A stretch of 64,000 nucleotides of DNA. Source: Cucumis sativus. Its lineage: Eukaryota; Streptophyta; Magnoliopsida; Cucurbitales; Cucurbitaceae. The stretch is taken from contig NC_026661.2 of assembly GCF_000004075.3 (NCBI RefSeq), positions 21,108,307-21,172,306 on the forward strand, in the 5' to 3' direction. The notes under the pieces were generated by a model that was not told the DNA's origin, made no database searches, and saw nothing but the letters and a program-made list of their open reading frames with translations. A program made the translations under genes and the position numbers. Below are positions 27,528 through 55,424 of the stretch, piece by piece. Each line of letters starts with the position of its first letter. Position 1 is the stretch's first letter.

Positions 27528-27593
27528 CCCCATTCCTCCCTCAATCCTCCTTCATCCGATCTTTTCTCGTCTACTTTTAGCTGATTCGTTAGT

Positions 27594-31634: not shown

Positions 31635-34600
31635 ATGTGGAAGCTCAAAGTTGGGGCCGACACCGTACCTTCCGATCCTTCGAACGCCGAACGATGGCTC
31701 TCAACCCTGAACAACCACGTCGGCCGCCAAGTGTGGCATTTTCATCCCGAACTCGACTCACCGGAAGATCTTCAACAGATACAACAGGCTCGCCAGCACT
31801 TCTACGATCATAGATTCGAGAAGAAGCATAGTTCTGATATCCTCATGCGTATGCAGGTCCTTCAGCTTTCAAATTTCATCTTCACACTTCCTTGATCCAT
31901 GCCCCCTTTTCCCTAATTTGCTCAGAAACCAAGTCTGCTACATCATTTTAATACTGAAAGTCACTAGTTATGGTGGTTTCCTAGTACAGGACTTCTAGAG
32001 GGTTTTGGGAATCTTTAGTGTTTATTATTGTTTTTAACTACATTTTGGATCAGGGGTTCTAGTTATAAATTTTTGATTTTTCAATTGCAGTTTGCCAAGG
32101 AGAATTCATCCTTTGTCAATTTACCGCAAATCAAAGTTAAAGATAAAGAAGACGTGGTAGAGGAGGCAGTAACGCAGACTCTAAGAAGGGCTATGAATTT
32201 TTATTCAACAATCCAGGCAGATGATGGTCACTGGCCTGGAGACTATGGCGGACCAATGTTTCTACTTCCTGGTTTGGTAAGAGAATTTTTATGAAGCAGC
32301 ATTTGCAATGTATATAGCTTTATAGAATTTGGTTTAGTATGTCTATGTTTAGAGCTTCCGAGGAAACTGTATGATATAGCACTGTACTACTGCATTGTTA
32401 ACCACGTAAAATGTTATGTTGGTTTACCATTACAGGTCATTACTCTTTCCATTACTGGCGCCTTGAATGCTGTCTTATCTACAGAACACCAACGTGAGAT
32501 TTGCAGATATCTATACAATCATCAGGCAAGATTTTTTCTCTTTGTAAACCTTCTCGTGGCTTAAAATCTTAATGAGTACTTTTTCTGTTTAAATCAACCG
32601 CTATTTGTTTTTAACCACCATGGTTGGGATTAATAGCCAACAAGAGCCTATGTGAACGGTGGAGAGATTTGAGGGAGCGGGTTAAATTGATATTGGTCGC
32701 TTACATAAAATTTAATTTTTCACCATTTTTCTTGACGAGAATGTAGGAAGTAATTGCCCCAGCAAAATAGTTCAGGTGCAGGTCCGGAAATTCATAGATA
32801 TCAAAAAGAAAAAAGGGAAAGGAATTGCCTGAAGTTTGTTTGTCCAACTTCTATTTTATGTTGATGATATTTTACTGCAAAAAGAAAAATTATTATGCCT
32901 TGTAGATTGCTTATTTTTTAGAGTTATGATGTAGAATCAACCAAACAGAACCAATATGAAGATCCATAGCATGTAGAAATGGGTTCCATAACTTAATTGG
33001 ATGATTTATGTCAATGCAGAATAGAGATGGGGGTTGGGGTTTACATATTGAAGGCCCAAGCACAATGTTTGGTTCTGTGCTGAACTATGTTACTTTGAGA
33101 TTGCTTGGCGAAGAAGCTGAAGATGGGCAGGGTGGTGTAGACAATGCACGGAAATGGATCTTGGATCACGGTGGTGCAACTGCAATTACTTCTTGGGGAA
33201 AAATGTGGCTTTCAGTATGGTGTCAAGTCTCTGATTCACTTATGATCTAAAATCAATAGTTGATGTAATTAATATAATGTTTGCTGATGATAGGTACTTG
33301 GAGTATATGAATGGGCTGGAAATAATCCACTCCCTCCAGAACTATGGCTCTTGCCTTATCTTCTCCCTTGTCATCCAGGTCAATCATCATTTTCTTTTGT
33401 TAATTAAACAGGATCAGTTTATTCAAGCAGAAATACATGTTCTTATTGAAATGGTGATTCAAAGGACATTGTTCCACCAACTCCCTTGCAAAATCCAAAA
33501 GCATTGCAGAATCTGTTGGATTGGAAAGATAACAGAAGTACCCCTTTTCACCAGCCTTATGAGCACGTCTTCTTTACATTAAAGACCTCATTTTCCTCTT
33601 AATTTGTTTAAATTAAGGCAAAAATTAGTGTACAATTAGAGTTTTATTCCTAAATATAATTTCCTTGTTGATTCTAATATTTTATTTACACGCGGATTGT
33701 CATATTCATCGTTTTATGTTTACCATTGGAGCATGAACTATTTAAGTCCCATTCTAATTGTCCCCCTTTTTTAGTCTTCTTGTCGATGTTTTTATAGTAA
33801 TTTTATCACTTGTTCATGGCTGCTAATTCTTGTTGGTTTATCTAATAGGAAGGATGTGGTGTCATTGCCGAATGGTATACTTGCCCATGTGTTATCTGTA
33901 TGGCAAGAGATTTGTTGGTCCTATAACGCCTATAATTAGATCTTTAAGGAAGGAACTTTATCTCGTCCCTTATCATGAAATTGATTGGAATGAGGCTCGC
34001 AATCAGTGTGCAAAGGTGGGTAAGGACATGGTTGAAGTTCTCTCTGAAGCTTCTTTTTTTTAAAAAAAATTCTCAACTTAGTCCTAGTAAAGGTTCAGGT
34101 CTGGGTTTTGGGAATATATATGTTTTGGTTCTTGGAAGATTTGCATATCAGTGGATCATTCTTCCGAATTTCAATTTCTTGACTCTAAATTATTGGAAAA
34201 AACAGTGTAGCCCTCCCAGGTATTACAATAAGGTCTGTGTACTGCACTCCAATTCAAGGTCGTATGTTGTACATTATCACAAAAGTGTGTTTTTGTAGGA
34301 ATGTGACATTGTCTTAAAAAATAAAATAAAATAAAGCTTATTTGTGAATAGCCTGGAATGATGACCTTATCTGAACAAGATTTTTTCTACAAGTTGTTCA
34401 AGCTGGGATTTCTCTTTTCCTAGAGAAACGAAAGAAAGATTCTACAAGCGTTGTCAAAGAAGGCTTCTTGCAGAATTTGGAGAAACTTGCAATGTTATCC
34501 AATGAAAGAAAATGATGACAATGTCTCCTTTAAATAGATCCAAAGGGGAAGGACTTATTCACACCTAATTAACCATCCCTAACCTCATTAAATAGACCCA

Positions 34601-37600
34601 ATATAGGATTAGGCGGATTGTCTCGTGAGATTAGTCGAGCTGCGCGTAAGCTGGCCCAGACACTCATGGATATAAAAAAAGGAGAAAATTAAATAGACCC
34701 AAAGAGGAAGAGCTTGTTCACACCTAAACTAAAAATAAAACGAAAGTTTATAAACTAAAAATAATAAAATACCATATCAATATAAATGCCTTGTAATTAT
34801 ATTTAGGAATTACCCTAAATGCCTTGTAAACTGGATGTTTTGTGCAAATAATTTAATGTATAGCAATCACTTACAATTGGCCTCATCCAATGGGTACTTT
34901 GGGGATGCTTTGTACGTGCAATTCTTTTCTCAATTTAATTCGTTATTCTCATATTCTTTAGTTGATTGATAAGATGATTACCTGGTGCAAAGTTTGGGAT
35001 AAGATAACAATACTCATGCTCATTTGCAAATATTTAGGTGCATTGACAATAATGAACTACGCATGCATTCTGATTAAAAAAGTTGTTGCCAGTTTTCTAT
35101 GAAGGATGCAGTTTTCTGATGGTCACAGTTTGTTTTGTCATTATTGTTAGGAAGACCTGTATTACCCACATCCGCTGGTTCAGGATGTTCTGTGGGCTTC
35201 GCTGCACCATGTCTATGAACCTCTTTTTATGCGTTGGCCTGCAAAAAGACTGAGGGAAAAGGCTCTGCGGACTGTAATGGAACATATCCACTATGAAGAT
35301 GAAAATACTCGGTATATATGCATAGGGCCTGTCAACAAGGTATGCTTTAGGGACTATAAATTATGTCTTACAAGAAATAATAGACTCCTTTTTCAGATAT
35401 CGAAAAGAAAATATGTATAGAAACAAATTGTGGCCATCTAGAAGGTCTCTTTAATGAAACAATTGTGTCAGTTCTTTTTTTCAGGTCTTCAACACCATCC
35501 GGATGGAATTCCTGGTTCTATCATTGTTTCCATGATTGTCTACTTCATTTGTGCAGGTATTAAACATGCTTTGTTGTTGGGTGGAGGATCCACATTCAGA
35601 GGCATTCAAATTGCATATCCCAAGAATTTATGACTATCTTTGGCTTGCTGAAGATGGGATGAAAATGCAGGTTCATAAACAATTTCAAATTTCCTCTCAT
35701 TGACATTATAAATTCTATTTTCCCCTACTTTTTTCCCCTTTTATGAAAGTGCAGGGTCAGAGAATATGTGACATTATATATATGAATGATATAATGGGAA
35801 TAAGAAAAAGACAGTCTTTCCTTTGCTCTATAGAAGAATGATTTCTCATGACGAAAGAAAGAAACATGTGGAAAGGAAAAGAACAAAAAATGCACAGGAA
35901 AAAAAAAACAAAGATTGCAATCAACTCTTTTAAAACTTGCAATACACCGTTTTTTCTTTCTTTTTTTAAGCTAGAAATACAAACTTTTCATTTGTAGTTC
36001 ACAATATATCAAATTTCTACCAAGTGCCTAACAAGGCAATATAACCGAAAAATTAAATGTAACACGATATTAACAGATGGACGTGAGACTGTGAGATGAT
36101 ATAATATTAAATTATATGTTCACCCATAAGCTTAACATTTTGGGTCAACTGGTGATCTAACATGGTGCCAAAGCAGATTGTTCAAAGGTCTTGCTTTCAA
36201 ACCCCTAAAATAGTATTTGTTCCCCAATTAATATTGATTTCAACTTGTTGGGTGTTCTACATATTTCAAGCCTATAAGTGAAGAATGAGGGGAGTGTTAG
36301 ATGGTATAATATTAAATTTACCTTCATAAGCACAAGCTTTTAGGTTCATCAATAATTCAACAAATGCTACCAAAGTCTTTAGTTCTTCGACAATAGATAA
36401 CAAAAGTGGCTTATTTCATGAAAACATGTCAAAATGAAGCAAAAAAGACAGGTTTCTTAAAAATTTTGAAGCTAGAGAAATCCTTGTTGTCATTTGTCAA
36501 TTCTCAGAAAAAGTAGTTGTTCATCAAGCATGAACTCGGGATCGGACGAAGGGGAATAGGTTATATAAGGGAGAATGTGACTAGAATTTGTCTCTGTTTT
36601 CTTCCTATTGTTCAGACAATCCCAAGAATACTAGAAAGTTAGAAGAACATTGAAAAGGACAAAAACTATACATCATTCATGCAATAGGAAGTAGTCTCTC
36701 AGCAAATTAGTTCCATTATGGAAAGAATGAGCTGCTTGAGATATCTGAGCTTTCCTATTAAATTTTTCATCACCTAGCAACATTTGGAAATTCAGAAGAT
36801 ATAACTGGCTGTCTATGGAATCCGAATATATTGGAAGATAAACAATAATGAAAATACGAGATAAACCAAGTGTTCGAGGTACTTGAACCCTCCTAATCTT
36901 GAAATACTTTCAAGCCCTACATTACATTCCCAAAATATTGTTTACCTCCCTTCTGTCCTGCTCACTGTATTTATAACCAAGCTTCTCTAACAAACTATTT
37001 AACTAATTACTAATATACCCATAACATCCCTCTAATACCATTGCTATCACTATGTTTGTTTACTATAGGGTTACAATGGAAGTCAGTTATGGGATACTGC
37101 ATTTGCTGTTCAAGCCATCATGTCAACTAAGCTTGTTGAAGAATATGGGACAACTATAAGAAAGGCGCACAAGTATATGAAAGACTCCCAGGTTCTTATT
37201 AAAAGAACCTATTATCTACTCCAAGTTTTCTTTGTTTTATAGGTGTTAAGTTTTCTACTTTGCAGGTCCTAGAAGATTGTCCTGGGGATTTGCAAAGTTG
37301 GTATCGTCATATTTCAAAAGGTGCATGGCCATTTTCAACCGCTGATCATGGATGGCCCATCTCTGACTGCACTGCTGAAGGTTTGAAGGTATTGGCTTGT
37401 TTTTATATATCAATTTTTAACATAGTTTAGATAGATAATACTTCTTCCCTGAAGGCAGGAGTTCATTTTTGCCTCCAACTCTTAACCTGATATTTTAAAT
37501 TTATTTTTTATATTATTTGATAGCTTGAGATTCCATATGTTAATAGTACTTGTAGACCTTACATAGGGCAATTGTCAATTATGTGAATAGTAAAAGGTAA

Positions 37601-40600
37601 GAATTAGTTCAATCAAAATGATCTTATAATTTTCTCCCAAAAAAAGCTATGAAAGTTTATACATATATATTTTATATAAAAACATATTAGAGTGCGGAAC
37701 TAAATGGGAAAGAATACTAATTTTTCATGAGATGGTTTCTCAAACCCACCTTTACTCATCAAGTAAAGAAGAATCAAACTTGATTGGGGCAAAAGAATTT
37801 CTGGCATTGCCTCACCTTTTACCATCCTGAACGATTATCAGACTTCACTGGCCATTGTTTGTTTCCGAAGTAATAAGATTTGTTTATTTTTGTAGGCTGT
37901 TCTTTTATTATCAAAACTTCCTTCAGAAATAGTAGGGAAGTCGGTTGATGAAGAACGGTTGTATGATGCTGTGAATGTCATTCTCTCCTTACAGGTAACT
38001 GTGGTTATTTTTATTATTATTTTAAAAGAACAACTTTTCATTGACAAAAAAAGAAAAAAAAAAAAGAAAAAACCCACGAGAATTGGATGCTACCTAAAAG
38101 GAAGGAGTCCAATCAAGCAAGATAAACTAAGTGAATAATTACAAAAAAAATCTTTCTAACTAAAACGCACAAATAAACATGGTACCTAAGCAGGGACAAC
38201 ATATCAAAAGGATTAAGCTTCTTCCTGTCAAAGGAGAGAGGAGAGAGAAATATTTCTGTTGACTGAAAACACATGTTAAGCAAGCTGAACCCATCATGAA
38301 CCTAGGGTTTCTTTCCTGTCAGCCATAACTTATGCCAATAAGCGTGTGCTCAGATGCCAATTGATGAAGCTCTTTCGTAGACAGTTCTTATCTCACAAAA
38401 TCTTTAACCCTTGTGGCTTACAATGGTTTGTGTAAAACCTACTTTTAGGTCGGTGCAAGCTCTCTTTTAGATGTTAACAACAGATGCCAATTACAGAAAA
38501 CAACTAACTAAACAAACAAATAGTGTGAATGTCCTCTGTGCCTACTTCAACTTCTCTTGTGGTAGCATTTCCCTTCAAAATAATAATAACAATAATAGTA
38601 GTAATAATAAAATGAATAAATAAATAATCGTGTGGTAGATGGTCACTGAGTCTCGACCTTCAGTGTCTCCCCTGAATTATGAGGTACTGATTCAAATAAA
38701 CAAGGTTTACGGCTTTATGTTTTTTTTAGTAATACAGAAGTGTTTATTGGAAGTGGATGCTGAGGTATGATATATATCATATCCTCAATCCTTTTAATCT
38801 AAAGATATACTGAATATTTTAGGCTTCTTTCAATCTAATAATGAACATACTCTAAGTTTTTTTTCTCTAAATCCAAGTTCATTAGTCCTAGCCTTCCTTT
38901 AATCCAAATTTATTAGCTTGCAGAATACTGATGGTGGTTTTGCCACTTATGAACTCACCAGATCATACCGGTGGCTGGAGGTAAATACAGTTAATCCTTA
39001 AGCACATTATTTTCTCACCCTCTTATTGTAGCATGGGTTATTTATTATTTGCGTTTAATTTTCAGCTGATGAACCCTGCTGAAACTTTTGGTGATATTGT
39101 CATTGACTACCCGTAAGATTTTTAAATGCTCACGTCCATTGATTTAGTCTTTTGTTGTATATATCTTGGAATTGATGTTGGGTCGGTTGAATACATAGAT
39201 ATGTTGAGTGTACGTCAGCAGCAATTCAAGCACTTGCAGCGTTCCGGAAATTATATCCAGGTCATAGAAGCAATGAAATTAGTAATTGTATTGCTAAAGC
39301 TGCTGATTTCATTGAAAGCATACAAGCAACCGATGGATCTTGGTTCGTTTCGATTTCATAGTTATGTTTTTAAACTTTAATTTTTTTAACTTGATACATT
39401 TGCTCCCATTATTCTACCATTCTTTTGCTCTATGAAAGTAGGATTTTAATCTTAAAAGAAGTATTTACTCCCTTTGAGACCATTCTACTAGAATATTATT
39501 GTTCAGTGCTACTATACTTATATACTGAGCGGTCTATACTAATATTTTATGCATGAATATTGTCGATTTACATACATGATAGGTATGGATCTTGGGGAGT
39601 CTGCTTCACCTATGGTGGTTGGTTTGGGATAAAGGGTCTGGTTGCTGCTGGAAGGAGATACGAAAACAGTTCTAGTCTTCGTAAAGCTTGCGACTTTCTG
39701 TTGTCTAAGGAACTTCCTGCTGGCGGCTGGGGAGAAAGTTATCTTTCCTGCCAAGATAAGGTTGTATGAAATTTCTCTTTCTCGGGAATATGATGATGCT
39801 GAGTGATGCTGCTTTTTTTCACCTTCCTTATTTCTGCTCATTTAATTTTATTAATTTCAGAGGATCGACATTCATTCTCTTCATTTTTTCAAGAGGGGGA
39901 TTTACTTGATCAAAATCACCCATTACCTTTTTTTTTCTTAACAAATTCAAACTTTGAGCTGATTTTATGTCACAAGTCATCGCCAAGGTTTCCGAGTGGA
40001 GTGACATTTGGAAACTTGGACTACTTTTCATGTTTTGAGTTATGATAGCCCACTAATTTTGCTGGATCACAAGATGGCAGGTTTTCCTTTTTTATGCAAC
40101 AAAATGGTTTGTACTTGCCAAATGAAGAATAACTCCATTGACGTATGACAGTGTAGTAGTCGCCTGAATTTTGTGGTTTGAATTCCCCTACCCCAATTGA
40201 ACTAAAAATGGTTTGTACATGTTGGATCTGACTATCCAATGACTTCCTCATGATGACTTGTATTATGATGTTTCTTGGATGGAACATAAGTATTATGTTA
40301 TCCTGTTTCACGAAATCTCATTATCATTTGAACAGGTATACACAAATATCAAAGACGATAGATCACATCTTGTCAATACTGCTTGGGCTATGTTATCCCT
40401 TATCGATGCTGGTCAGGTATTAAATATTGTTTTATAAGCGCTAAAACTATTAACGAATTTATCAAATTAAGCACGTTAGGCATAGTTTGGTAGTTCCTAA
40501 GATGTTCTTCTGATGTTAACGATTACAATTTTTCTCACGTGATTAGGCTGAAAGAGATCCAACACCATTACACCGTGCAGCAAGGATACTAATCAATTCT

Positions 40601-41263
40601 CAAATGGAAGATGGAGATTTTCCTCAAGAGGTAACTGGACTTTACTCGTTCGGTTAAATTTCATGACTTTAAGCTTACCAATGTATCCATTAATTGATTG
40701 GAAGTTGATTATTGAATTTGTCTTCGCCATGACATTGACGCGATAGAATATAGTTTTAGAGAAAATATCAATTTATACCTCTAAACTTTAAAAATTGTAT
40801 CAATTTACACCATAAGATTCACATTCTCCACTATCTTCTGCTCAAGAGAATGTAGTGTGAAATTCACACACAATTGCATTATTTTAAATAAAATGAATAA
40901 AATTAGATTCTTATTCATCATTCCTTTTGAGAATCATCCATGCACTTTGCAAAACTAACATTTTAGAGTTTAATTGACTTAAACTATAAGCTATCAAATA
41001 TCGGTTTCACATTGATGCACTCGCAAAACTTAAGATATAAATCGATATTTGTCCTCTATTTTACGAAAGAATTTAAGCCGAGACATTCTCTAAAATTACT
41101 GCTGCCACATGTCTCTGTTAATTTATAGTTTTATTTTGTCTTTGTACAGGATATCATGGGAGTTTTTAACAAGAATTGCATGATTAGTTATTCAGCTTAC
41201 CGCAACATTTTCCCTATATGGGCTCTTGGAGCATATCGCTGCCGGGTACTACAAGCTTCTTAA
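31635..41263 (+). CDS. CAS1: Cycloartenol synthase (oxidosqualene cyclase of sterol synthesis)
   Basis: Eighteen exons join in phase to 765 residues: 31635-31856, 32091-32276, 32436-32525, 33020-33214, 33294-33378, 33849-34015, 35151-35339, 35557-35670, 37069-37191, 37266-37388, 37896-37994, 38924-38980, 39066-39112, 39199-39342, 39583-39760, 40336-40416, 40547-40630 and 41150-41263. The enzyme cyclises 2,3-oxidosqualene to cycloartenol, the first committed plant sterol, on the ER membrane. Product-defining residues are those of cycloartenol synthase (Arabidopsis numbers in brackets): His265 (257) in MWCHCR, Tyr418 (410) in GYNGS, and His485 (477) and Ile489 (481) in [12 protein letters not shown], with catalytic Asp491 (483). 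QW repeats are present. It closely matches my memory of the squash enzyme CPX. Intron 3 starts with GC; intron 8 carries a TRIM relic. Confidence 0.96.
34600..34683 (+). mobile_element. SINE 3' tail fragment in cycloartenol synthase intron 6
   Basis: The string GTGAGATTAGTCGAG...GCGTAAGCTGGCCC...GACACTCATGGATAT, followed by a short poly-A, is the recurring 3' end of a plant tRNA-derived SINE class. No tRNA-like head with clear A and B boxes is seen, so this is a 5'-truncated copy. It sits between two 39-bp direct repeats (34530-34568 and 34689-34727), which are too long for a usual SINE target duplication. Confidence 0.5.
36090..36362 (+). mobile_element. TRIM-type miniature LTR element, non-coding relic
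   Basis: Two direct terminal repeats of about 70 bp (36090-36162 and 36295-36362) begin TG and end CA. The first is followed at once by a primer-binding-site-like string resembling the initiator tRNA-Met site; the second is preceded by a purine-rich tract. The interior is ~130 bp with no coding capacity. This is the build of a terminal-repeat retrotransposon in miniature. The divergent repeats and lack of an evident target duplication suggest an old insertion. It lies in intron 8 of the cycloartenol synthase gene. Confidence 0.6.
40767..41050. repeat. MITE-like inverted-repeat remnant in cycloartenol synthase intron 17
   Basis: The left end TATCAATTTATACCTCTAAA is matched in inverse orientation by AACTTAAGATATAAATCGATA at the right end, with non-coding AT-rich DNA between. 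The family differs from the CTATCA elements. The boundaries are approximate. Confidence 0.4.
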
Positions 41264-42424
41264 AAAAACGACTGTTTTACTGCCACTGTGAGTCACAATA
41301 AGTACTTCTTTTAGATTTCTGCAGATGCTTGTGCTTTCCTAGGGCTCCTCTAAATTCAATCACATTAATAAATTCTCCTTTTTCTTACTTTGATCAATTT
41401 GATACATCCTTAGGTGATATATTACGGTAATGTTATTTTTAAAGGCTAATGATGCATCGAACAATAAGTGGAAATGATTAGAAATTTTTTAATAAAATTA
41501 TGTGTTTAGTCTCTTTATTTTCTCAATATTGTCAACTTTTTCAAACATGAATAGTTTCTCGAACTTTCAATTTTTCTTTTCTATCTATTAGGTCTGAAAT
41601 TTCCATTGCGTAATATTAGACAAAATACTATTTCATATATGTTCCACGCAAAGTTTAGGAATCTATTAGATGTGTTTTGTAGAAAGTTTTTAAAGTTATG
41701 AATCTTCTAGACATAAACATGAAAGTTCACATTTAAGGTATTATTCAAGCATGTATATTCGATAAGATTGCATCAATTTCTTTTAAAATAGACTATTAAT
41801 GATCGGTCATAATTGTTTAGATCTTCGAAATTTTATCTAAGTAAGTTTCTTTGTTTTGTTATACTTCGTTCGTATGTTTTTAAAAACCAATCCGAAAACT
41901 CTTTTAGTAAAGTAGAAAAAACTAAATGTGTTCTAGGAATTTAAAACGATTAAATTTAGATCCACATGTTATGGATGAATTAAAAAGAGCATGAGTTGCT
42001 TTTCATCTACGCAGTGGACATGGAGGTCAAATTTCATTTGAGTTTGGTGTATTTTTATCAAACCCTGAACTTGAAGTGTTTGTGAAAAAGTTGATAATTT
42101 TGAACAATTGTTTAAAAAGTGTTTTGCTTTGACGGATGGATTTAGAGTTTTCGAAAAGTAGATGAATTAGATTCGTAAGACAATTTGTTCATCAAGATAT
42201 TTTGATGATACATGTCAAAGCATGACGGTATTAACTTTTCAAGAACTCGTCAATACTATAGGCTTAAATGATACCCTATTAATTATTATATCATTTAATT
42301 ATAACAAAAATAGCGACAAGTTCTCACAAATGTGAATATTCTACTATTTTTTAAAAACATTACAAGTATACTAATACTACGACTATTAAATTAATTAAAA
42401 GTTTTCACGTGACATATAGGAGTG

Positions 42425-42562
42425 GTAAAAAATAGCAAATTTTAGATTCTATCAATAACAAACATTTGATACCCAGTGATATTCTTTTATCACTAAATCA
42501 AATTAAATTTTTTTGCTATAGCTTGTAATATCTTAATTTATTTTGCTATTTTTAAAAATACT
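42425..42562. repeat. MITE-like element, CTATCA family
   Basis: The ends TAAAAAATAGCAAAT and TTTTGCTATTTTTAAAAATA are inverted repeats. The interior has TCTATCA and a second TTTGCTATAGCTTGTAA string, as in the copy at 50860. Confidence 0.6.
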
Positions 42563-43309
42563 TTGTGAAAAACAAAGAGCATGAAATTTGGGTGCAACCT
42601 AAAATGCATCTAAGTAATTTCTTTTACGAAATAAGTCGTAGACTTTTAGTTCTAACGAAAGCGTTTGCAAATTGATATACAATAAATGTTACTCAATTGT
42701 ATTAAAGTTAAATAAGTAATAAATATTTGTGAGCCTGAGGTGAGAAGTCGTTGTTAGGGGTAGGTGAGGAAGTCCATGCCACGAAATTCAAAGGTGACAT
42801 TTGTATTTTGTAATATACAAAACAAACACATTCAACTCCCTAACCAAACGTTACCCCTACTTTCTTTTTAAATTTTGATAAAAACAAAACAAAACAAAGA
42901 GATTATAAAATTTGAAAATATTTAGTGTTAAATTGAAAGTTTCATTTCACTTACTATAAACCCTTTTAAAATTTAGATCTCATAAATACAAACAAAAATA
43001 TTTCACCCCATATATACACACACTTGTAATTTAACCTCACGATGCATGTATTTCCACAACCATATCATTTAAAATTATTTGTAAACTTTATTACAAGTAA
43101 TTTAGCCCTTAAACTTTCAAGTTTATATCTATCCAACTACTAAAATCTAATTCTTAAACTCTCAATCGATCTTATACTATATTTCTTAATTTTTAATTTT
43201 AATTCATAGGTCAGCCATAAAATAATTGAAAGTTAAAAATTGTAAATTAGTCTATAAGGCATAAAATTAAGAGACTCTCACAAAAATAGCAAAAGAAGGT
43301 CCGTGTCTC

Positions 43310-43377
43310 GTTCCATTTTTAAATTACAAAAATAACAAATTTAGTTCCATTTTTAAATTACAAAAATAACAAATTTA
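43310..43377. repeat. Perfect 34-bp tandem duplication
   Basis: The unit beginning GTTCCATTTTTAAATTAC occurs twice back to back, at 43310 and 43344, without a visible difference. Confidence 0.9.
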
Positions 43378-44631
43378 AAAGTTGATATGTCCGTCGTCAA
43401 TATCACTAATTATTTTGTCAAGATCTGCCTCCACATTAACTTTCATTCCCACTTCTCGCACATGCAATTTTAAAATGCCTTTTTAGTGTATTTTCAAATA
43501 ATAATAATAACAACAACAACTAATAATAATATAAAAATAAAATGCCGTAGCCTTGAGCTCAAATAAATAAATAAATATTGACTAACTTCATGATTATTTA
43601 GGTTTTATTTTTCTAAAATCAATCTTATAAAAATTGTTTTTTAAATATTGATTTCTTTGTTTGATACTGTTTTAAAACCTAAGCTAAATATTGAAAAATA
43701 AATAAATAAATAAACAGCCTTTAAATTTTGAAAAATTGAAAAATTTGTTAATTTTTATATTGATTTTTCTAAAATATGTATTTGTTTTCTTGTATTTAAA
43801 TTATTTTTTAAAATAAATATTTTAATTCATATACAAACGTTTCCTAACAGAGAATTATATATAAAAAATAACAAAGTAGACAAAATATTTACATCTAATA
43901 ACAAAATTTATTATAAAAAATGCTTTGCAAAGCTAAGTTTTTAAAACCTACTTCGTTTCGTTTTCAAAACGAACGTATATCATAAAATGTAGTTATTAAA
44001 ATAAAGAAACACATGGGTAATATATAAATATAGTTTCTATCAACTTAATTGTTTTTAATTTTCTTAATTAAGAAATTGAGTACAATTTATAAACAAATAG
44101 TTTAATTAAGTTGAAAAGGTAATAATATTAATGTTGTTGGTAGGAAATATTATAATAGAGATCTTGACTCTATTATATATACTTATTCTACAATGAAACA
44201 TTTAATTAGTGAAGAGAGACTCATAGATGGATTTGAAAAAAATATAGGAAGCCGGCGTTGAATGTGTAATAGTAATTGGTCAAATGTCCAAATCATGGGG
44301 TAATGTTATTATATGATATTATACTATATGAATAATAGAAACTAATAATTAAGGAGTAATTGGACGGGTAAAGTCTATATTTGAAAATGCTTCTCAAACT
44401 AAGACGATGTATCAAATACAATAAAACGGTATAGCAATGGTTTCAATTACAACTTAGGGTACGAGTTTCAATTATATTGTAACTTGTAACTTAAGGTTCA
44501 ATTTCAACTATACAACTTAGGTGGTATTATATAGCTTATGGCACAAGTTGTGTAAGTAATTGTACTTACACGACTTCGATTATAAGTTGGGGGCAAATTG
44601 TTGTTGATGAAAAATTGAATGATTATTTAAT

Positions 44632-44908
44632 TTGGCTAAGTACGGAAATCGACTTATATAGGATCTACCAATAATCCATGAGTTGACCCTCAAGTCATAA
44701 GTTTATTTAACTATGGATACCAACCCATAGTCCTATCAAGTCATATGCTTATTTGGCTAAGAATGGAAATTAACTCATAGCCCAATAAGTTTCTATGCAT
44801 GAAGCAATAAGTTTATTTTTTACTAAGTATAAAGACTGACCTGTAGGGTCTATCATAAAGCCGTAAGTTTATTTGGCTAAGTATGAAGTCCAATCCCCAA
44901 TCCATATA
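44632..44908. repeat. Degenerate tandem array, ~45-75 bp units
   Basis: About five diverged units share TTTGGCTAAGTATGGAAAT at one end and CAAGTCATAAGTTTAT at the other, with starts near 44632, 44706, 44753, 44817 and 44873. The last unit is cut short. Confidence 0.7.
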
Positions 44909-47797
44909 TAGGTGGAGGTAAAGACCAACTGAGTGAAAGAAAATGTTATGTCTAAGATGTACATACTATTGCACATACTTCCTTCGTCATGGCAAAACCT
45001 TTTAAATGGGAGAATCTGGTTGGCTTTTGAGGTCTTTCCTTCTTCCTACCTCGACCACACCCCCTTGAAGGTAGCCCGAGAACTCTCTCTTTTAGTGATG
45101 CTTTCCTTAGAGAAGATGAGAAAAATGTTAGCTTTGTGGAAGAAAAGTTTCTTCTCTAAAACTTCTTTTGGGAAGGAGTACTAAAGGAAAGGAATGGGTC
45201 ACTACCGTAGGACGAAAATTTAAGGTTAACATAACAAACTCCTATATATAAGTTAAACGACTTTTAAATTAACATTTTGTGCCCTTAAAGTCTCAACTTT
45301 GTAGCATAAAATTAGTGCGAACAAACATGTTTCCCACCCCTATGGGTGGGTGGCGTGTGACGTGAAAAGATATAGCTCGGTCTCTACATATTATTAACTA
45401 ATTTTGTATAAATTAATTTTAATTTTTTTTCAAAATGAAAATCTAATTAAAAAAACAAGTGTATATATAAAAATAGAATCGTGCAAAGTAAGTAATTATT
45501 ATAATATATACACACAACTCATATTTGACAAAGTCATCCAATATATATATAAATAGGTATGTATGTAATCAAGAAGGAATCATAAGCTTTGCTACAACTA
45601 CAAGATTGGATATATATTGATTGCGTGAAGACCATGACATGAATATGATATTACAAGAAACAAAAATCATAAGATGCTTATATTGAAATATCTCAAATCC
45701 ATGATATTGTTTGACCTAATTATAATATACTATGATTTTGTTTAATTACATTAATGGATGCACATTCACCATTATCATTTTATATTAACATCGTCCCATA
45801 CGACTTATTTGAACGGTGTCCTTCAATTTCCGTCATTAATAGTTTATTTCTAAGATTCTTATATTATTTGAACGCTCTCTAACTTTGAATTAATGTCGAT
45901 ATTAATACAAACACATTTTATGTCTTCATATCACCGCTAGTATAATATTATAAATGTTAAGGAGTCTTCTTATTTAAAGATCAAAGTTGATTTCTCACTA
46001 CCATGTGATTATCGCACTAAAACGAAAGGTCGTGATATACGTTAGAATATATTTAGCTTGGTATTTTAATTTTAATTAAGGATTTAGGTAGAAGAAATTA
46101 GAAGTAATGTCAAGAAGAGGAAAAAATGAAATCCAAAATTATATTGTTAATTGAGATCACCACAACCACTGTAATGAATTGATGATTGAAGAAGAAGAAC
46201 ACAACTAATAATATTACAAGTTGATGTGGAAATTTTCATTAAATTAATTATTATCATTTATAATATAGTGCGAGTTCCACGAGCATCATTTCTAATAAAA
46301 ATAACACTAACTTATTGATTTATATATATATAAACAAATGTATATATGTGAAATCAATGGAAGAATAGAAGAATTATTGTGAATGATATAACAAATATAA
46401 TAACATAAATCTATAGATTTCTAGTGTCTATTAGTAATATATTTAAAAACACTCCGATTCAATTTGTATATTTATTTGATAACATGCATAAGATTATATT
46501 TCATGATCTGTCCATCGTATAAAGTATTTGAAGTTCTTTGATTTTTTTTCCAATGTAAGATTCTTAACAAGACTCTTCGAAAAATGATGTCTTTTTCAGT
46601 TTATGATAGTTCAATATAGTTTTTTGGGATTGAATATGTATATATGTTTGACCTTTAAAAGTTTTAAATTCTGACAGTATATTCTTAATACGAGGAGGTT
46701 CTATTTAAATGAGTTGATAACAACGAAAAAGGTAATTTATATGAATGTTATGGTAAGGAATGAGATCCTTTATTCTTTTTAATACGAAATCTCAACAATA
46801 TTAAATAAAGAATAAATGATGTAATGAAAGTAAATTAATACAAATGGGTTGAACAGAAAAGGAAAGTAATGGTGTTTGTAGAAAACTACAATGGAGATCC
46901 ATAAATGAAGGATATTTAGAGTCTAAGTCAACAAAACAAAAAAAAGAAAAAAGTTAAAAGAATAAACAAAACAAATTTGGTAATTAATTCACAAGAAAAT
47001 CCCAAATATAAAGTGCACTATCAGAATTGTTTGAGTGTCCGTAATGAAATTAGTTTGTAATATAATGAACGTAACCCAAAACTCATGCTCAAATTAACCA
47101 TTTTAAACCTGATTTGTAAGGTCAAAATTTATTAGATTTTCACTGTTTTCTTTTCCACCGTTTTTACGCTTCACAATCTTATTTATGTTTTGGGTCGAAT
47201 GGATCGGAGCATAAGTATTTGTTGTTGATATCGGTGGGTGAGCACGTCAACTTGAGAGAAAGGAAAGGAAAAAGTCGAAAATGCCCCTAGAATGAATTTA
47301 ATATTTTGGGTTAATTTGTTTGTATTGACCAACCAAACTCTTATGACATAATGTGCAAATATAAAAACAAGAGGAAGTTAATATGAATTGCTCAAAAACT
47401 TGTTTGAAGTCATTTAATTGTTCAAGATATGGTGAGATTATTGGTCAAACTAATTTAATTTCTTCTTCTTCTTTTTTATTTTGGTTGATACCTACCTGTC
47501 ATCACCACATATACAACCAATTTCTATTATGTATTATATACATGGAATTTGGTTTAAGATTACATATAGATATACGTACATATATATATATATATATATA
47601 TTTGAAAATTATATGTTTGGAATAAGAGATTGGTTATGTTTGATTGTGCATTTAAAATGTGTTTTTCGAATTTGGAAGAAATTAACTTGTGTTTACTAAT
47701 TATTAATCTAAACCCCATATTTATTTAATGAAATTAATTAATCATCATTGCTAATTAACCTTTGATTGCACGTTTTTAATAGATTAATTAAAGAGGC

Positions 47798-47940
47798 ATT
47801 TTTAAAAATAGCAAAATAAAATTAAATATTTACATGCTATAGCAAAATTTTGGATTCTATCACTAGCATATCAATAACCGTCGGTGATAGAATTTACAAT
47901 AAGTTGTAAATATTTTGTAAAATTTATTATTTTTAAAAAT
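47798..47940. repeat. MITE-like element, CTATCA family (upstream of IMS)
   Basis: Terminal inverted repeats CATTTTTAAAAATAGCAAAAT and ATTATTTTTAAAAATTC flank internal TTCTATCACTAG and GGTGATAGAATT palindrome halves. Under 1 kb from the next gene's start. Confidence 0.65.
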
Positions 47941-47980
47941 TCATCTTAATTAATTTTAAAATACATTTTTTACGTGAACA

Positions 47981-48157
47981 ATTTTTAAAATAACAAAATG
48001 AATTAAAATATTTACAACCTATAGCGAAATTTTGGAAATCGATAGATTTCTATCACTTAGAAGCATATCAGTGGATATCAATGTCTATTATTGATAGAAA
48101 ATCTAAAATTTTACTATGTATTGTAAGTATTTTATCAAATTTTCTATTTTTGTTAAT
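47981..48157. repeat. MITE-like element, CTATCA family, second adjacent copy
   Basis: It lies 40 bp after the previous copy in the same layout: ATTTTTAAAATAACAAAATG at the left, TTTCTATCACTTAG and TATTGATAGAAAA inside, and TTTCTATTTTTGTTAATT at the right. Confidence 0.6.
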
Positions 48158-48447
48158 TCTCTCTTTTTTTAAAAAAAGACAAGATAAATTATGTTAATTG
48201 AAATGGTTAAAATTGTAAATTACTTTTTTTAACCAAAGTTTTAAATTAAGAAAAACTAATAATTAAATAAAAAAATGAATCTAATTATGATTAATAAATA
48301 GTGTATTTATGGGTTGACTTATGGTATTAGTTAAATAGGCACTAAGAGAACATAGTTGAGAGATGGGAAACCAAAGTTGTAAGAAATTAATTAATTAATT
48401 TGCACAAAAGGACACAAATAATCGTTATTTATAAATATGTCATTGTC

Positions 48448-48457
48448 TATATAAAGC
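48448..48457 (+). promoter_or_regulatory. TATA box of the isomultiflorenol synthase-like gene
   Basis: CTATATAAAG lies about 135 bp before the ATG at 48587, which fits a leader of roughly 100 nt. Confidence 0.55.
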
Positions 48458-48586
48458 AAAGAAATGACATTTGTGGGAGAGAAGTTAGAGACGGCCATTT
48501 GAAGTCATTGAAGATTGAGATTTTGATAAGGTTTAAGGCTTTCAATTTCTTTCTTTCTTCAACAAACTTAGGTTTCATCCACCAAT

Positions 48587-51500
48587 ATGTGGAGGTTAAA
48601 GGTAGCCGATGGCGGAAATGACCCTTACATCTATTCTATGAACAACTTTGTCGGAAGACAAATATGGGAATTCGACCCGAATGCTGGTACTCCAGAAGAA
48701 CGAGAAGAAGTTGAACGCGTTAGGAACGAATTCACTGCAAATCGTCTCAAGGGTTTTCCTAGTGCTGACTTGCTTTGGCGTCTCCAGGTAATGTTGTCGT
48801 GTCATCTTGAATCATACTTTTAAATACCGAAAAGTAATTCAGTTTTTCAAACTATTAAAATTGGGTTTAAATGATTAAAACTAAAGTTTTTTTCAAGTGA
48901 TTTTAATCATTTTGAAATCAGTTGCAAGCATGCTTTACAATCCTTCAACTATTACTCAAAATCTTCGTTTCTTAACCTTTACAACTTTTCCACCTTTCCA
49001 ACATAATTTGGTGATAATTGATATGGACTAGTTTTCTTATCATTGAAGGTTTAACTTTTTCGTCCATTTTATTATTAATATACTTAATTAAGTTCGACCT
49101 TAACCTTTATGTATTTATATTTTTACTTAAGAAAATGTGAAACTATAAAACCTCAAACAAAAGTCAACATATCAATAAGATAAAAATCACATTTAATTCA
49201 TCCACAAATTGTTAAATAATCAACTAGAACGAATCTAACTCAATTAACTAATAACGATTCCTAATCCATCTATTTCAGTTGAACTAAAACAAAATTACTT
49301 AATGATTAATTAAGCATATATAACTTTTTCCTCTTGGAAGCAACAACTTTCCAAATTCTAAGGCCTGCTTTAATTATCCCTTTGTCATTCTTAACTATAA
49401 TATTTGATTTTCTTCTCTTTCTTCTCGTCATTTTAACTTAAAAATATAATAATTTGATTCCATTCATACATAATATTATGAAAATTTATTAAAAATACAA
49501 ATTTGACAAAATATTACAACATACAACTGTTCATATGCTTGTAAATATTTTAATGTATTTCAGTTTTTTTTCATATATTATTAAGAAAAATTGAACAAAA
49601 TATTTACATTTTAGTGATTTTTTCAAAATTGGAAAAAACCCTTGTGTTAATATACCTAACCCCATTTTTAAAATTGAATAAATCTTTAATTTATAGTCTT
49701 TGGTAATTTAGTAATTTATGCCCATTAACAAAGTGTGTAAATTTGAATTCTATGTGCACTCAACAAATAAATAAAATTTTCTTTTAAAAAGTCAATTTTA
49801 TATGATTGTATTGACGTGAATAGCTTAATTTTTTTTAAAAAAATGACATGAATAATATATTATTCTTCCCACTATTATATTAGTGTATAGTACCATACTC
49901 ATCTTTTAATAAAGAAATGACAAATTTGTTTATTATTATCATCATTATTTTGACCAAGTTGTATGGTACAATTGAATCATAAATCTAATTCATTATTTTG
50001 ACCAAGTTGTATGGTAGAATTAAATAATAAATCTAATCCATTTAATCTAGGGAAACTTATAGTTTTAGTTCTTTTACCATATATACTAATTTAGTAAGTT
50101 TTCATAAATAACCCTCCCTATATTCTTTGAATATATGCTTGTTAAATGTAATTAGAACAATTTAAAACACGTTTTCTACCGTTAATCTAAACAAACAACA
50201 TGTTAAAAATGAATGAGAAAAGTGATTTTAAGGTAAGCACTTTTGGGTGTGGCAGCTTTTGAGAGAGAAAAATTTCAAACAAAGCATACCACCGGTGAAG
50301 ATCGAAGAAGGGGAAGAAATGAGTTACGAGAAGGCATGGGACGCAATGAGAAGAGGGGCGCACTTTCTAGCGGCCATACAAGCGAGTGATGGGCATTGGC
50401 CCAGTGAAACATCCGGCCCATTGTTCTACAACTGTCCATTGTTAATTTGTATGTACATAATGGGGTTTTTAGATGCTGCTTTCCCTCCCGAGCATAAGAA
50501 GGAAATGAAACGTTACATTTACAACCATCAGGTATATATATCACATTCTTTAGTAGAACAGAAATGGAAAGATTTAGATTACAGATTTCTTTGATTGCTA
50601 AGACTTAGTTTGTGATTTTGTAGAACGAAGATGGTGGATGGGGGTTACACGTTGGTGGTCATAGTAATATGTTTTGCACTACCTTCAATTACATCTCTTT
50701 GCGTTTACTTGGGGAAGGACCTGATGTTGAGCCGGTTTCTAGGGGTAGAACTTGGGTCCGTGAACATGGCGGTGTTACCTCTATTCTATCGTGGGGAAAG
50801 ACATGGCTATCGGTATATATTAATTGTTTTCTTACTATAATTTTCATTAGAGAATTTGTCAAAACTAGCAAATTTGACAAAGTTTTACAAGTTACAGCGA
50901 AATTTCAAATTTTATCTCACTGATAGAATATAGTTTTTTTGCTATAGCTTGTAAGCATTTTAATTTCTTTTGTTATTTTTAAAAATGTTCCTTTTTATTT
51001 CTATGAGCTAATTGATTAATTAAAAACTTACTTGAATGATGTAAAGATATTGAACTTGTTCGATTGGTCTGCAAGTAACCCCATGCCTCCGGAGTATTGG
51101 ATGTTTCCCACTTGGGTCCCCATTCATCCATGTAAGTTTATTTCTGGTTAATTAGTTAATGGTAGTTTTGAAATGGTTAAAATTATTATTTTTATTTTAA
51201 ATTATTTGTTCATTCAAATTAGGACCGTTTGAATTTTTTTGGTATAGAATTGTATGATAAAATTTCTCGGCAAAAGTAATTTTGAATGTTTAAGAAAGAT
51301 GTCCAAAGAGTTTTTTTCTTAAAAAATAAAAATATATGTTTTTTAACATTGCACAATTACTTTCAAATACGTTCTAAATTCATATGAGAAATACTGAAGC
51401 GTTCCTTGAGTTGCACCTATCTTTGTACAGTTTAGATAACTACTTAAAAACTGTCATATGTTAGTTTTTGTTTTATAAAAATGATACTTTTTTGGAAAAA

Positions 51501-54500
51501 TGTTTGTATAAGAAAAGGGAGTATGAGATTAGATGTTAAATAGACTACCCCTAACCATTACTTCACATTATGATTGATTTATATCTTTCCTGATGTGACA
51601 GCAAACATGATGTGCTACACTCGAATCACCTACATGCCTATGTCATATTTATACGGAAAAAGGTTTCAAGCTCCTTTAACGCCTCTTGTCTTACAATTAA
51701 GAGAAGAACTTCACACCGAACCCTACGACAAAATTAACTGGAAAAAAGTTCGCCACATGTGTGCGACGGTAACTTAATAATTTCATTCTTCAATATAGTT
51801 ACCTACTTACCCACCATTTTCATCCTCACTTAAACATAATCAATTAAATTTACAGGAAGACCTATACTTTCCACATCCCTTCGTCCAAGACTTGCTTTGG
51901 GATACTCTTTATTTGCTAAGTGAGCCATTGATGACACGATGGCCTTTTAACAAATTAGTTCGTCAAAAAGCCCTCGACGATACTATGAGGCATATTCATT
52001 ACGAGGATGAAAACAGTCGTTACATTACCATTGGTTGCGTCGAAAAGGTTACAACAACTATCAAATTAAACTCATGCATGCTTAGCAATCAGTTAACATA
52101 AGTAATTAACTAATATGGATGTTTTGTGATTGTGGATACAGCCATTATGCATGCTTGCTTGTTGGGTTGAAGATCCAAACAGTGACTATGTGAAGAAGCA
52201 TTTTGCAAGAATTCCAGATTATTTATGGATGGCTGAAGATGGAATGAAAATGCAAAGTTTTGGTAGTCAATCATGGGATGCTGCTTTAGCCATGCAAGCT
52301 CTTCTTGCTTGTAATATTCCCCAAGAAATTGATTCTGCACTCAACACTGGCCATGAATTCATCAAGAACTCCCAGGTAACTAAAAACCCAAAATCAAATC
52401 ATTACCGATCGAAACCATATAATGAATCGTTCGATTTTCAATTACACACAATTAATTACGTTGCAGTAACTAATAGTATACATACTATATATATTATATG
52501 AATTGAAGGTTAGAAACAACCCACCTGGTGATTACAAGAGTATGTTTCGCTATATGTCAAAAGGAGCATGGACCTTTTCTGACTGTGATCATGGATGGCA
52601 AGTTTCTGATTGCACTGCCGAGAACTTGAAGGTCAGCTTCTAATTTAACCATCCCTTTGCTTCCCAATTGGTATTGAATTTTTTCGTTGAGTTTAGGAGG
52701 ACAATTCAAATTGATTTTAGATTTTGTGATCTATTAAACGATACAAATTCTAAAATAAATGGTTTCATTTTTCTCTTGTACTTGGAGGAATCGTAAAAAG
52801 TGATAAAGTTTGAAGTATTTTTTTATTATCAAATGGTCATGATTCATTCATTAATGTTTTTGTTCTTGGCATGTTCGTTGTATTAACAATTTAAAATTAT
52901 GAAAATTATTAGTGTTGTCTACTACTATCGTTACTACCGTCTGAAATGGTTGGTGAGAAGATGGAACCTGAACGTTTGTACGATGCTGTTAATGTCATCC
53001 TAAACATGCAAAGCAAAAATGGCGGTTTACCAGCATGGGAGCCAGCCTCAAGATACTATTGGATGGAGGTAACTACAAAATGAAATATATCTTTAATCAC
53101 TCTAAAATAAACTCAATAATTTAATTTAAATTAAATTAAAACTTCTAAAATAAACTCAATAATTTAATTTGATTTTGATTCATGATTAAAATTCTTTTTT
53201 CAATAATTTTTTTTAAAAAATCTAACCCTTTCTAAAAACATTTCGAAAATATCTAAATCATAACTTCCTAATTAACATATTCATCATATTATTAATTCGT
53301 CTTCTACCTTTTGTTTAGTGGCTGAATCCAGTGGAATTTCTCGAAGACCTAATCATCGAGCACCAGTATGTAGCGACTTAATTTATGAATATTAATCTAT
53401 CATTTTTTAAACGTTTTCAACTATACCAAAATAAACAAATTTATTTAAAAGTATAACCGATAGATTGCGATAGATTCACTGTCTTTCTCGATCTATCGCG
53501 ATAATTATCTCTTATAAAAATGTAAAATTTTGCTATATTTATAAATAATTTTCAATTTTAAACAAATTTTCTTATTTGATTTCTTTCAACTTAGCTAATT
53601 ATGAAACTATATAATAATTAACGAACGGTTAATTTAGGCATGTGGAGTGTACATCATCGGCGTTACAGGGCATATTACTGTTTAGGAAACAGTACCCAGG
53701 ACATAGAAGGAAAGAGATCAATAATTTTATCAACAAAGCAGTTCAATTTCTTCAAGACATACAATTGCCTGATGGTTCTTGGTAACACACATTACATTTA
53801 ATGAATATGTATAATATGATTTATAAGATAATGTTTTAAATAAGAAAATTTGTGTATATGATTATTGTATATAGGTATGGAAATTGGGGGATTTGCTATA
53901 CTTATGGAACTTGGTTCGCACTCAAGGCATTGTCAATGGCGGGGAAGACTTACGAAAATTGTGAAGCACTTAGGAAAGGAGCCAATTTTCTATTGAAGAT
54001 ACAAAATCCAGAAGGAGGGTTTGGAGAGAGCTACTTGTCATGTCCTTACAAGGTAACAAAATCAAACTTTTTAGGGTTTTTTCGAAAATTCAATTGGTTA
54101 TTACAGTTGGATGTGTTTGAGGTGTAAACGATTTTGATTTTGGAGAAAGGGGAAATTAAATATGATAGTGAGTAGAAAGTAGTAAACAACCTAAGAAATT
54201 AAAAGTAAATTATTGTATTTTTTAATATATAGTAAAGTTTTAGATTTTATCGATAATAGAGATTGAAGACTTATACTGTCTATTAGTGGTCTATCGTCAA
54301 TAGAATTTGAACTTTTTCTATCTTTTTGTAAATATTTTGTCAATGTTATCATTTTCGAGAAATCTGTTGGGATAATGTATATTTTAGAAACTGATGGAAT
54401 TGTTATGGGATTTCACCAACAGAGATATATACCGTTGGATGGGAAAAGATCAAATATTGTGCAAACGGCATGGGGTTTGATGGGTTTGATAAGTTCTGGA

Positions 54501-55424
54501 CAGGCAAGTTCACTACATCTCTATCTTTCTTTTTTCCTACTCCAAAAGCAAAGATTTGATTATCTAACGTTAATAAATTACGAAATTTTACCATATTTAT
54601 AAAGATTTTCAAATTCTATTAATATAAATCTATAGACTTCTATCAATATTTATTTATGTCATTATTACAAACTAGTAAAAGTTTATGTATATTTATCACT
54701 ATCGAATGGTTCTACCATTTACAATAAATAGATTTTTTGTTGTATAATTATTTTAATAAAACAATTTCAAAAAATTAAATATACCATGTATTAAAAAAGA
54801 GTATAGAGTAGACTAAAACATTTCAACCACCGTTAAAGTATATTGAAACTATGAATTAGTTCTTAATTTACCTTAATAATAATAAGAATTAATTACTTAA
54901 CAGGCAAGTGTAGACCCCGAACCCCTTCATCGTGCTGCCAAGTTCCTCATCAATTCTCAAACAGAAGATGGTGATTTTCCACAAGAGGTCAGTACCTTTT
55001 TCGTGTCAAATTGCAAAAACCAATTTTCAACTATTATAAGTCGAATGATAAAGTTTGACCCTCAAACATACAATAATAGTAAAAGTTAGACCTAAAACAA
55101 ATAAAATTGAAACCTAAAACTTATATAATTGATTAGTACAATTTATATCGTTACATAAGTTTAGAATATAATTGTAACTATAATCGCAAGATAATAATAG
55201 AAAATTTTGTTAGAGTGTCTAAATATTTTTTAGGTTATTTTACTAATCAGCAATGTTTATAATTTAATTATGTTCTTATAATATATTGGCAGGAAATTAC
55301 GGGAGAATTCTTCAAAAATTGCACCTTACACTTTGCAGCATTTAGAGAAGTATTTCCAGTGATGGCATTAGGAGAATATTGTAACAAAGTTCCATTGCCT
55401 TCCAAGAAAAAACAAGAAATTTAA
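48587..55424 (+). CDS. IMS1: Isomultiflorenol synthase-like oxidosqualene cyclase
   Basis: Fifteen exons join in phase to 762 residues: 48587-48787, 50256-50531, 50624-50812, 51047-51131, 51602-51768, 51856-52047, 52142-52375, 52509-52631, 52913-53068, 53319-53365, 53638-53781, 53875-54052, 54423-54503, 54904-54987 and 55293-55424. It has the beta-amyrin-type cyclase N-terminus [19 protein letters not shown] repeats, and the catalytic Asp482 in [11 protein letters not shown]. The position of the MWCYCR box of beta-amyrin synthases reads MMCYTR (253-258). The whole sequence matches my memory of Luffa isomultiflorenol synthase very closely. That enzyme turns oxidosqualene into isomultiflorenol, precursor of bryonolic acid. 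Intron 13 starts with GC. Beta-amyrin synthase activity is the main alternative; only product analysis can settle it. Confidence 0.9.
49943..50038. repeat. 48-bp tandem duplication in IMS intron 1
   Basis: Two adjacent units begin CATTATTTTGACCAAGTTGT, at 49943 and 49991, with a few differences. Confidence 0.85.
50860..50988. repeat. MITE-like element in IMS intron 3, CTATCA family
   Basis: It has CAAATTTGACAAAGTTTTAC at the left, CACTGATAGAATA inside, and GCTATAGCTTGTAAGCATTT then TTGTTATTTTTAAAAATG at the right. It resembles the copy at 42425. Confidence 0.55.
53403..53557. repeat. MITE-like element in IMS intron 10, CTATCA family
   Basis: The ends TTTTTTAAACGTTTTCAACT and TTTGCTATATTTATAAATAA are diverged inverted repeats. 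The interior has CGATAGATTGCGATAG and CGATCTATCGCGATAA palindromes. Confidence 0.5.
54211..54352. repeat. MITE-like element in IMS intron 12, CTATCA family
   Basis: It has TATTGTATTTTTTAATATAT at the left, GTCTATTAGTGGTCTATCG inside, and TTTTTGTAAATATTTTGTCA at the right. Diverged. Confidence 0.5.
54570..54755. repeat. MITE-like element in IMS intron 13, CTATCA family, degraded
   Basis: It has ACGAAATTTTACCATATTTA at the left, ACTTCTATCAATATTT and TTATCACTATCG inside, and a weak right end. This is the least certain copy. Confidence 0.35.

Follow-up and report, generated by a model that had tools for sequence, protein, structure and literature searches.

Reviews of triterpene biosynthesis describe specialised oxidosqualene cyclases (OSCs) as recruits from cycloartenol synthase (CAS) by duplication, and triterpene genes as lying in tandem repeats (PMC11439499, PMC6929605), a general pattern that is already known. 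In cucumber, the Bi cluster, comprising a cucurbitadienol synthase, cytochromes P450 (P450s) and an acyltransferase, has been published on chromosome 6 (PMC6929605, PMC10819951). Among cucurbits, isomultiflorenol synthases (IMS) are described from Luffa (LcIMS1), Momordica (McOSC9), Trichosanthes (TcIMS) and Hemsleya (HcOSC5), the last proven in yeast (PMC11211238), and CAS from Momordica (McOSC2), Gynostemma (GpOSC1) and Hemsleya (HcOSC1). Cucumber and melon seeds are reported to be rich in isomultiflorenol, and bryonolic acid is reported from cucumber roots (PMC13069671). Here, we analyzed a 64,000-nucleotide stretch of the Cucumis sativus genome (hereafter "the window"; C7:21108307-21172306) holding two adjacent OSC genes, g1 and g2, alongside the whole genome searched (226.6 Mb, 88 contigs). 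With good confidence, we read the pair as an ordinary housekeeping CAS next to an old, specialised IMS-type paralog, both using 2,3-oxidosqualene and not recent duplicates of each other.

Two complete cyclase genes of ancient divergence

Gene models were built by splice-aware alignment against the solved cyclase chain 8j5z_A ("Terpene cyclase/mutase family member"). Both genes were recovered on the + strand, each as one uninterrupted model with 0 frameshifts and 0 stops. For g1, the alignment spans window positions 31635-41260 and is followed directly by TAA, while for g2 it spans 48587-55406 (757 residues) and continues through KKQEI to a stop, for a total of 757 + 5 residues. The introns are GT-AG in 29 of 31 cases, with one GC-AG intron per gene. 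Both genes match 8j5z_A with E < 1e-299, one of the two queries being a hand-edited approximate model, and 33 exons that follow a 765-residue protein in register exclude chance by a wide margin. An earlier annotation of this window made from its letters alone (the sequence-only reading) had described two complete head-to-tail genes of 765 and 762 residues, 7.3 kb apart and with distinct motifs, and this description proved exact: the spacer measures 7,323 bp, g1 carries MWCHCR where g2 carries MMCYTR, and DCTAE is present in both (Table 1).

The same reading had also inferred that a duplicate of an essential gene stands next to, or is ancestral to, a specialised one, which would make the pair local duplicates. 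To place the pair within its family, the genome was searched with a C-terminal Pfam model (11 matches) and with a stretch of g2 (27 exon matches), only the best candidates being scored. At least 12 OSC genes were identified: one on C1, at least five on C2 (2.507-2.592 Mb), three on C5, one on C6, and g1 and g2 on C7. Of these 12, 11 were modelled, one C2 copy (2.507 Mb) being the exception; the model on C1 is incomplete at the 5' end, as the stretch used starts inside the gene. In a phylogeny whose only rows from outside this genome were 8j5z_A and human LSS, the sterol-type rows (g1, the C1 and C6 genes, and human LSS) were separated from the other nine with a branch support of 100/100, and g2 was grouped with the four C2 rows, again at 100/100. 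Enforcing g1 and g2 as sisters cost 448 log-likelihood units and was rejected by the approximately unbiased (AU) test (p-AU 4.87e-07). The two proteins are 50.3% identical, and the synonymous divergence (dS) between their genes was not computable, which we read as saturation.

Intron positions, mapped in seven of the 11 models (g1, g2, C2b, C2d, C5b, C5c, and C6, the last with an unreliable 5' part and four introns unmatched to g1), agree with the tree. All 14 introns of g2 occupy positions used by the 17 introns of g1, and introns 2, 8, and 11 of g1 are missing alike from g2, C2b, and C2d; C5b and C5c kept these three and lost introns 5, 14, and 15. Taken together, the AU test and the losses common to g2 and the C2 copies reject a local duplication of g1 into g2: the two genes are not each other's closest relatives, and the suggestion of a local duplicate is not supported. 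Gene conversion between the two was considered as well and left no sign, since identity between g1 and g2 in 40-residue windows tracks that between g1 and C2b, exceeding it in 3 of 18 windows and by at most 4 points. Instead, g2 differs from C2a, C2b, and C2d by a dS of 0.56-0.77, and a dN/dS (non-synonymous to synonymous divergence) of ~0.12 against C2b indicates that it is under purifying selection. The paralog most identical to g1 is the one on C6 (70.7% identity, Nei-Gojobori (NG86) dS 2.5), and the partial C1 model reaches 68.1%. Overall, g1 and g2 are very old paralogs and no recent duplicate pair.

Table 1. Features of the cucumber cyclase pair, in window coordinates.
Feature	Position	Strand	Details
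g1, most likely cycloartenol synthase (CAS)	31635..41263	+	18 exons, 765 aa; spliced alignment to 8j5z_A, splice sites, signature residues
g1 exons 1-9	31635-31856, 32091-32276, 32436-32525, 33020-33214, 33294-33378, 33849-34015, 35151-35339, 35557-35670, 37069-37191	+	
g1 exons 10-18	37266-37388, 37896-37994, 38924-38980, 39066-39112, 39199-39342, 39583-39760, 40336-40416, 40547-40630, 41150-41263	+	
MWCHCR motif of g1	33854..33871	+	W263, H265
DCTAE of g1	37365..37379	+	H485 and I489 ahead of motif
g2, dammarenyl-type (chair-chair-chair-folding) OSC, probably isomultiflorenol synthase	48587..55424	+	15 exons, 762 aa; spliced alignment, splice sites, tree
g2 exons 1-8	48587-48787, 50256-50531, 50624-50812, 51047-51131, 51602-51768, 51856-52047, 52142-52375, 52509-52631	+	
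g2 exons 9-15	52913-53068, 53319-53365, 53638-53781, 53875-54052, 54423-54503, 54904-54987, 55293-55424	+	
MMCYTR motif of g2	51607..51624	+	M254, Y256; counterpart in beta-amyrin synthase is MWCYCR
DCTAE of g2	52608..52622	+	Val two residues upstream
Spacer between g1 and g2	41264..48586	.	7,323 bp, 26% GC; no OSC fragment found (tblastn)
AT-rich short repeat with inverted arms	47775..47954	.	~0.6 kb 5' of g2 start codon

Predicted products of the two enzymes

Key OSC residues reported in the literature include Y118, Y410, M(W/L)C(Y/H)CR, and the neighbours of DCTAE (PMC9995806). At the sites of Y118, Y410, H477, and I481 type, g1, a complete OSC with the catalytic DCTAE, has Tyr, Tyr, His, and Ile (Y126, Y370, H485, and I489) along with MWCHCR. 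At the sites of H485 and I489, Asn and Val are found in the C1 gene, and Leu occupies the Y126 site in the C6 gene. We take His and Ile at these sites to be CAS-type and Asn and Val to be typical of lanosterol synthase (LAS), which the C1 gene would then match, and Leu at the Y126 site is presumably the cucurbitadienol synthase type, as in the C6 gene. By this rule, g1 shows neither the LAS-type Asn/Val nor the cucurbitadienol-type Leu, and its residues compared with those of the C1 and C6 genes make it most likely a CAS. It resembles plant CAS (e.g. McOSC2, GpOSC1, and HcOSC1) in its full length, in MWCHCR, in the Tyr at the Y118-type site, and in the Ile two residues before DCTAE; no difference was found, the likeness being judged by reported residues without a CAS sequence alongside.

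For g2, the position on the dammarenyl-type side of the tree and the Tyr in the xCYxR position are both as in cucurbit IMS, the comparison again being one of reported residues only. A study of Trichosanthes IMS reportedly named Y125 and M254 as key residues, and g2 carries Tyr125 and Met254 at exactly these positions. The beta-amyrin synthase motif MWCYCR is not found in g2, which has M254 for the Trp and T257 for the second Cys. Two residues before DCTAE, g2 has Val and g1 has Ile. In Momordica, Val is reported at this site for McOSC3 (LAS), McOSC4 (beta-amyrin synthase), McOSC6 (LUP), and McOSC9 (IMS), and Ile for McOSC2 (CAS) (PMC8745088), so that g2 agrees with McOSC9 and g1 with McOSC2. 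An IMS function is thus likely for g2, in part on account of the residues attributed to the Trichosanthes enzyme. Signature residues and tree together support the two enzyme classes, CAS and IMS-like, that the sequence-only reading had named.

Alternatively, g2, as a dammarenyl-type OSC, may form a pentacyclic product other than isomultiflorenol, or a mixture. Single residues are known to shift OSC products (PMC9995806), and M254 and T257 replace the Trp and second Cys of MWCYCR. However, the prevailing triterpenes of Cucumis seeds are reported to be multifloranes, and bryonolic acid is reported from cucumber roots (PMC13069671). The obvious candidates for their synthesis are g2 and the C2 copies, and Y125 and M254 are the residues reportedly named for TcIMS. 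We therefore consider another product improbable.

Several observations weigh against the assignment of the pair as CAS and IMS. Besides CAS and cucurbitadienol synthase, two beta-amyrin synthase-like proteins, McOSC5 and McOSC8, are reported to have Ile before DCTAE (PMC8745088), so that this residue alone is not diagnostic. In the same article, Momordica IMS is given a Tyr at X of "MWCXCR", which taken literally includes a Trp that g2 lacks, and the MWCYCR reported as conserved in beta-amyrin synthases is replaced in g2 by MMCYTR. At the site before DCTAE, the Val of g2 is a Leu in all four C2 copies read, hence close relatives differ even beside the active site. On the sterol side, a constraint holding g1, C6, and C1 together gave an AU p of 0.367, leaving this fork of the tree open. 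Finally, both product labels are predictions from residues and class rather than from characterised IMS or CAS sequences.

If these assignments hold, both enzymes would start from 2,3-oxidosqualene. In g1, chair-boat-chair folding would lead through the protosteryl cation to cycloartenol and on to sterols, while in g2, chair-chair-chair folding would lead through the dammarenyl and oleanyl cations to the multiflorane isomultiflorenol and on to bryonolic acid. The shared substrate, which the sequence-only reading had emphasized, holds as established knowledge; since 2,3-oxidosqualene is the substrate of every OSC, it is nothing special about this pair.

Relatives of the pair in the cucumber genome

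The closest relatives of g2 form an array of at least five IMS-like tandem copies on C2, of which the four read share MMCYTR and 82-85% identity with g2, and of which C2b and C2d have the same 15-exon structure. Unlike g2, the array is not linked to a CAS, has Leu before DCTAE, and includes one apparently 5'-truncated copy and one frameshifted in its model. The truncated copy is C2a (2523713-2530940), whose near-identity to C2c is lost upstream of ~2530940, the end of a repeated stretch; this loss, together with the lack of exons 1-2 in the model, makes the gene seem truncated. The frameshifted copy is C2c (2562924-2571082), whose exon 3 is modelled with a one-base shift. In C2d (2576918-2591664), SDSTAE stands in place of SDCTAE. 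The greater part of C2a and of C2c lies within a repeat of at least 15.9 kb (C2:2515001-2530940 and 2554211-2570150; offset 39,210 bp, 99.97% identity), and exon matches at 2507117 and 2546326, with the same offset, suggest that it starts earlier. Such a repeat reflects a duplication of very recent date or else redundancy in the assembly.

On C5, the counterparts of the MWCYCR motif are FLCYTR, LFCYCR, and LYCYCR. The C5a model (20444195-20453671) ends in an exon unlike the last one of its two neighbours; this gene is possibly a decayed copy, or the exon was missed. MWCYCR itself occurs in 0 of the 11 modelled OSCs, so that this genome, with 11 of at least 12 OSCs read, may lack a canonical beta-amyrin synthase, which contrasts with the amyrins reported from Cucumis (PMC13069671).

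Within the window, tblastn with g1, g2, and C5c (96 matches at E <= 10) revealed no further OSC fragment: 94 matches lie within 60 bp of g1 or g2, and the remaining two have E values of 8.7 and 9.2. The two GC-AG introns are located at 32526, after g1 exon 3, and at 54504, after g2 exon 13. The short repeat upstream of g2 is abundant genome-wide, with 53 matches listed, the window's own counted (best 40 of 1827 candidates scored), and repeats of this type also occur inside or close to four other OSC genes.

How the two genes became neighbours

Under uniform placement, two given loci would fall within 10 kb of each other with p 9e-5, and any of the 15 pairs among six loci with p ~1.3e-3; these values are post hoc and assume uniform placement though gene density varies. 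The adjacency of such old paralogs is thus unlikely to be due to chance. In Momordica charantia, CAS is reported on MC06 and IMS on MC09 (PMC8745088), and in Gynostemma pentaphyllum the two are Gype02G0020 and Gype04G0170 (PMC11676476), the chromosomes being read from the gene numbers. Accordingly, CAS and IMS are unlinked in both other cucurbits for which positions were found, unlike in cucumber, and the IMS of these species may correspond either to g2 or to the C2 array. Outgroups with both genes unlinked, combined with a phylogeny showing independent relocation, were among what the sequence-only reading had named as evidence against its proposal; the separate chromosomes reported for these two species bear this out in part.

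One explanation sees the pair as left over from the ancient tandem duplication that produced the dammarenyl-type OSCs out of a sterol cyclase, with C7 as the ancestral location from which the C2 array was later seeded. This would be in line with a g1-g2 dS beyond measurement, with the low probability of chance adjacency, with the 14 introns of g2 being a subset of the 17 in g1, and with the retention in g2 of the Val reported for Momordica IMS, a site that is Leu in the four C2 copies read. However, the intron argument is weak because C5b and C5c, which are unlinked, likewise keep only introns at g1 positions, and the separate chromosomes in Momordica and Gynostemma speak against an ancestral linkage. 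We therefore regard a relic as possible but doubtful. The fuller version, in which the C7 pair is the very footprint of the original sterol to dammarenyl-type duplication, with the specialised copy still beside its progenitor line and the linkage broken in other cucurbits, appears distinctly unlikely.

Two flanking genes bear on the history of the region. An ERF gene (window 24118-24726) and a PGG-ankyrin gene (27585-29649) have their best paralogs at C3:21466786 and 21531740, 65 kb apart and in the same order and orientation. The NG86 dS to these paralogs is 3.1 for the ERF gene and not computable for the PGG-ankyrin gene, hence at or beyond saturation, which makes this block much older than the split between g2 and the C2 copies. 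A whole-genome duplication as the source of g2 and the C2 copies was rejected on these grounds, the two genes pointing to C3 with a dS of at least 3 against ~0.7 for g2 and C2. No OSC was found on C3 among the matches listed. C3 was the consistent partner for two of the four flanking genes searched: the aquaporin gene has its best match at C5:2.85 Mb, and the H+-PPase gene has weak matches only, one of which, on C2 at 3.48 Mb (41% identity, 0.9 Mb from the array), does not fit C3 and was left uncounted.

These observations are compatible with a secondary linkage, in which a cucurbit ancestor gained, by insertion next to CAS, an IMS-type copy that came either out of the C2 lineage or along with it (dS ~0.7). 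The unlinked genes of Momordica and Gynostemma would be expected under this scenario, as would an ancient, decayed C3 block of ERF and PGG-ankyrin genes with no OSC match listed there. Conversely, a copy inserted at random would be unlikely to come to lie within 10 kb of CAS, a C3 block without an OSC is equally explained by loss, and a second sterol-type OSC of Gynostemma, GpOSC5 (Gype04G1624), is located on the same chromosome as the IMS gene, though far away by gene number (PMC11676476). On balance, we slightly prefer secondary placement to an ancient tandem that survived, and hold the former to be plausible if short of probable.

Gene neighbourhood and the question of a cluster

The sequence-only reading had further proposed that the pair could seed a metabolic gene cluster while noting no tailoring enzyme in the window. 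Pfam searches on 20 of the 53 open reading frames of the window identified aquaporin, AP2, ankyrin/PGG, and H+-PPase domains and one sub-threshold beta-lactamase-fold match, which we take to be a tRNase Z-like gene. Six-frame regular expressions for tailoring enzymes (P450 haem loop with ExxR/PERF, HCGWN of UDP-glycosyltransferases, DFGWG of BAHD acyltransferases, and 2-oxoglutarate dioxygenases) found none in the window; the positive control, a stretch of C6, covered the BAHD expression only. Nothing here contradicts the reported lack of a tailoring enzyme.

Beyond the window, P450 and BAHD matches were sought genome-wide. The exact BAHD motif occurs 51 times genome-wide, against 11 for a reversed control pattern, and its closest occurrence on C7, at 21493936, is 321 kb beyond the window. 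Of the 111 P450 matches listed genome-wide (best 92 of 508 candidates scored), none is on C7. Both searches were positive at the C6 OSC (6.122-6.128 Mb): a BAHD motif is found at 6.134 Mb, 6 kb from the gene, and the P450 matches listed include four in this region, spread over three places (6.104-6.112 Mb). With its P450 and BAHD matches around an OSC, this locus fits the Bi cluster (C6 6.10-6.13 Mb), in agreement with cucumber as the source genome, and its OSC belongs, like g1, to the sterol-type side of the tree. By contrast, no such matches were found at the C7 pair.

A metabolic gene cluster, of which the pair would be the beginning or a remnant, would have a precedent in the Bi-like OSC of this genome, and in Hemsleya ellipsoidea all identified OSC genes are said to be contained in antiSMASH clusters (PMC13091402). 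However, the neighbours recognised by Pfam, the lack of tailoring motifs in the window, and the distance to the closest BAHD motif, with no P450 match listed on C7 (best 92 of 508 candidates scored), all argue against it, such that we consider a cluster very improbable and the proposed seed unsupported. Adjacency by itself makes no metabolic gene cluster.

Implications for triterpene metabolism in cucurbits

In the literature searched, within which most subscription journals do not fall, we found no mention of a linkage between CAS and IMS in cucumber. We regard the g1-g2 pair as mildly interesting, because such old paralogs are adjacent and chance is an unlikely reason. The locus points out the likely sterol OSC of the cucumber genome and a likely entry enzyme to bryonolic acid, and it illustrates that neither recent duplication nor a cluster follows from the proximity of two cyclases. 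If the linkage is ancestral, it would be a physical marker of specialised triterpene synthesis leaving sterol metabolism.

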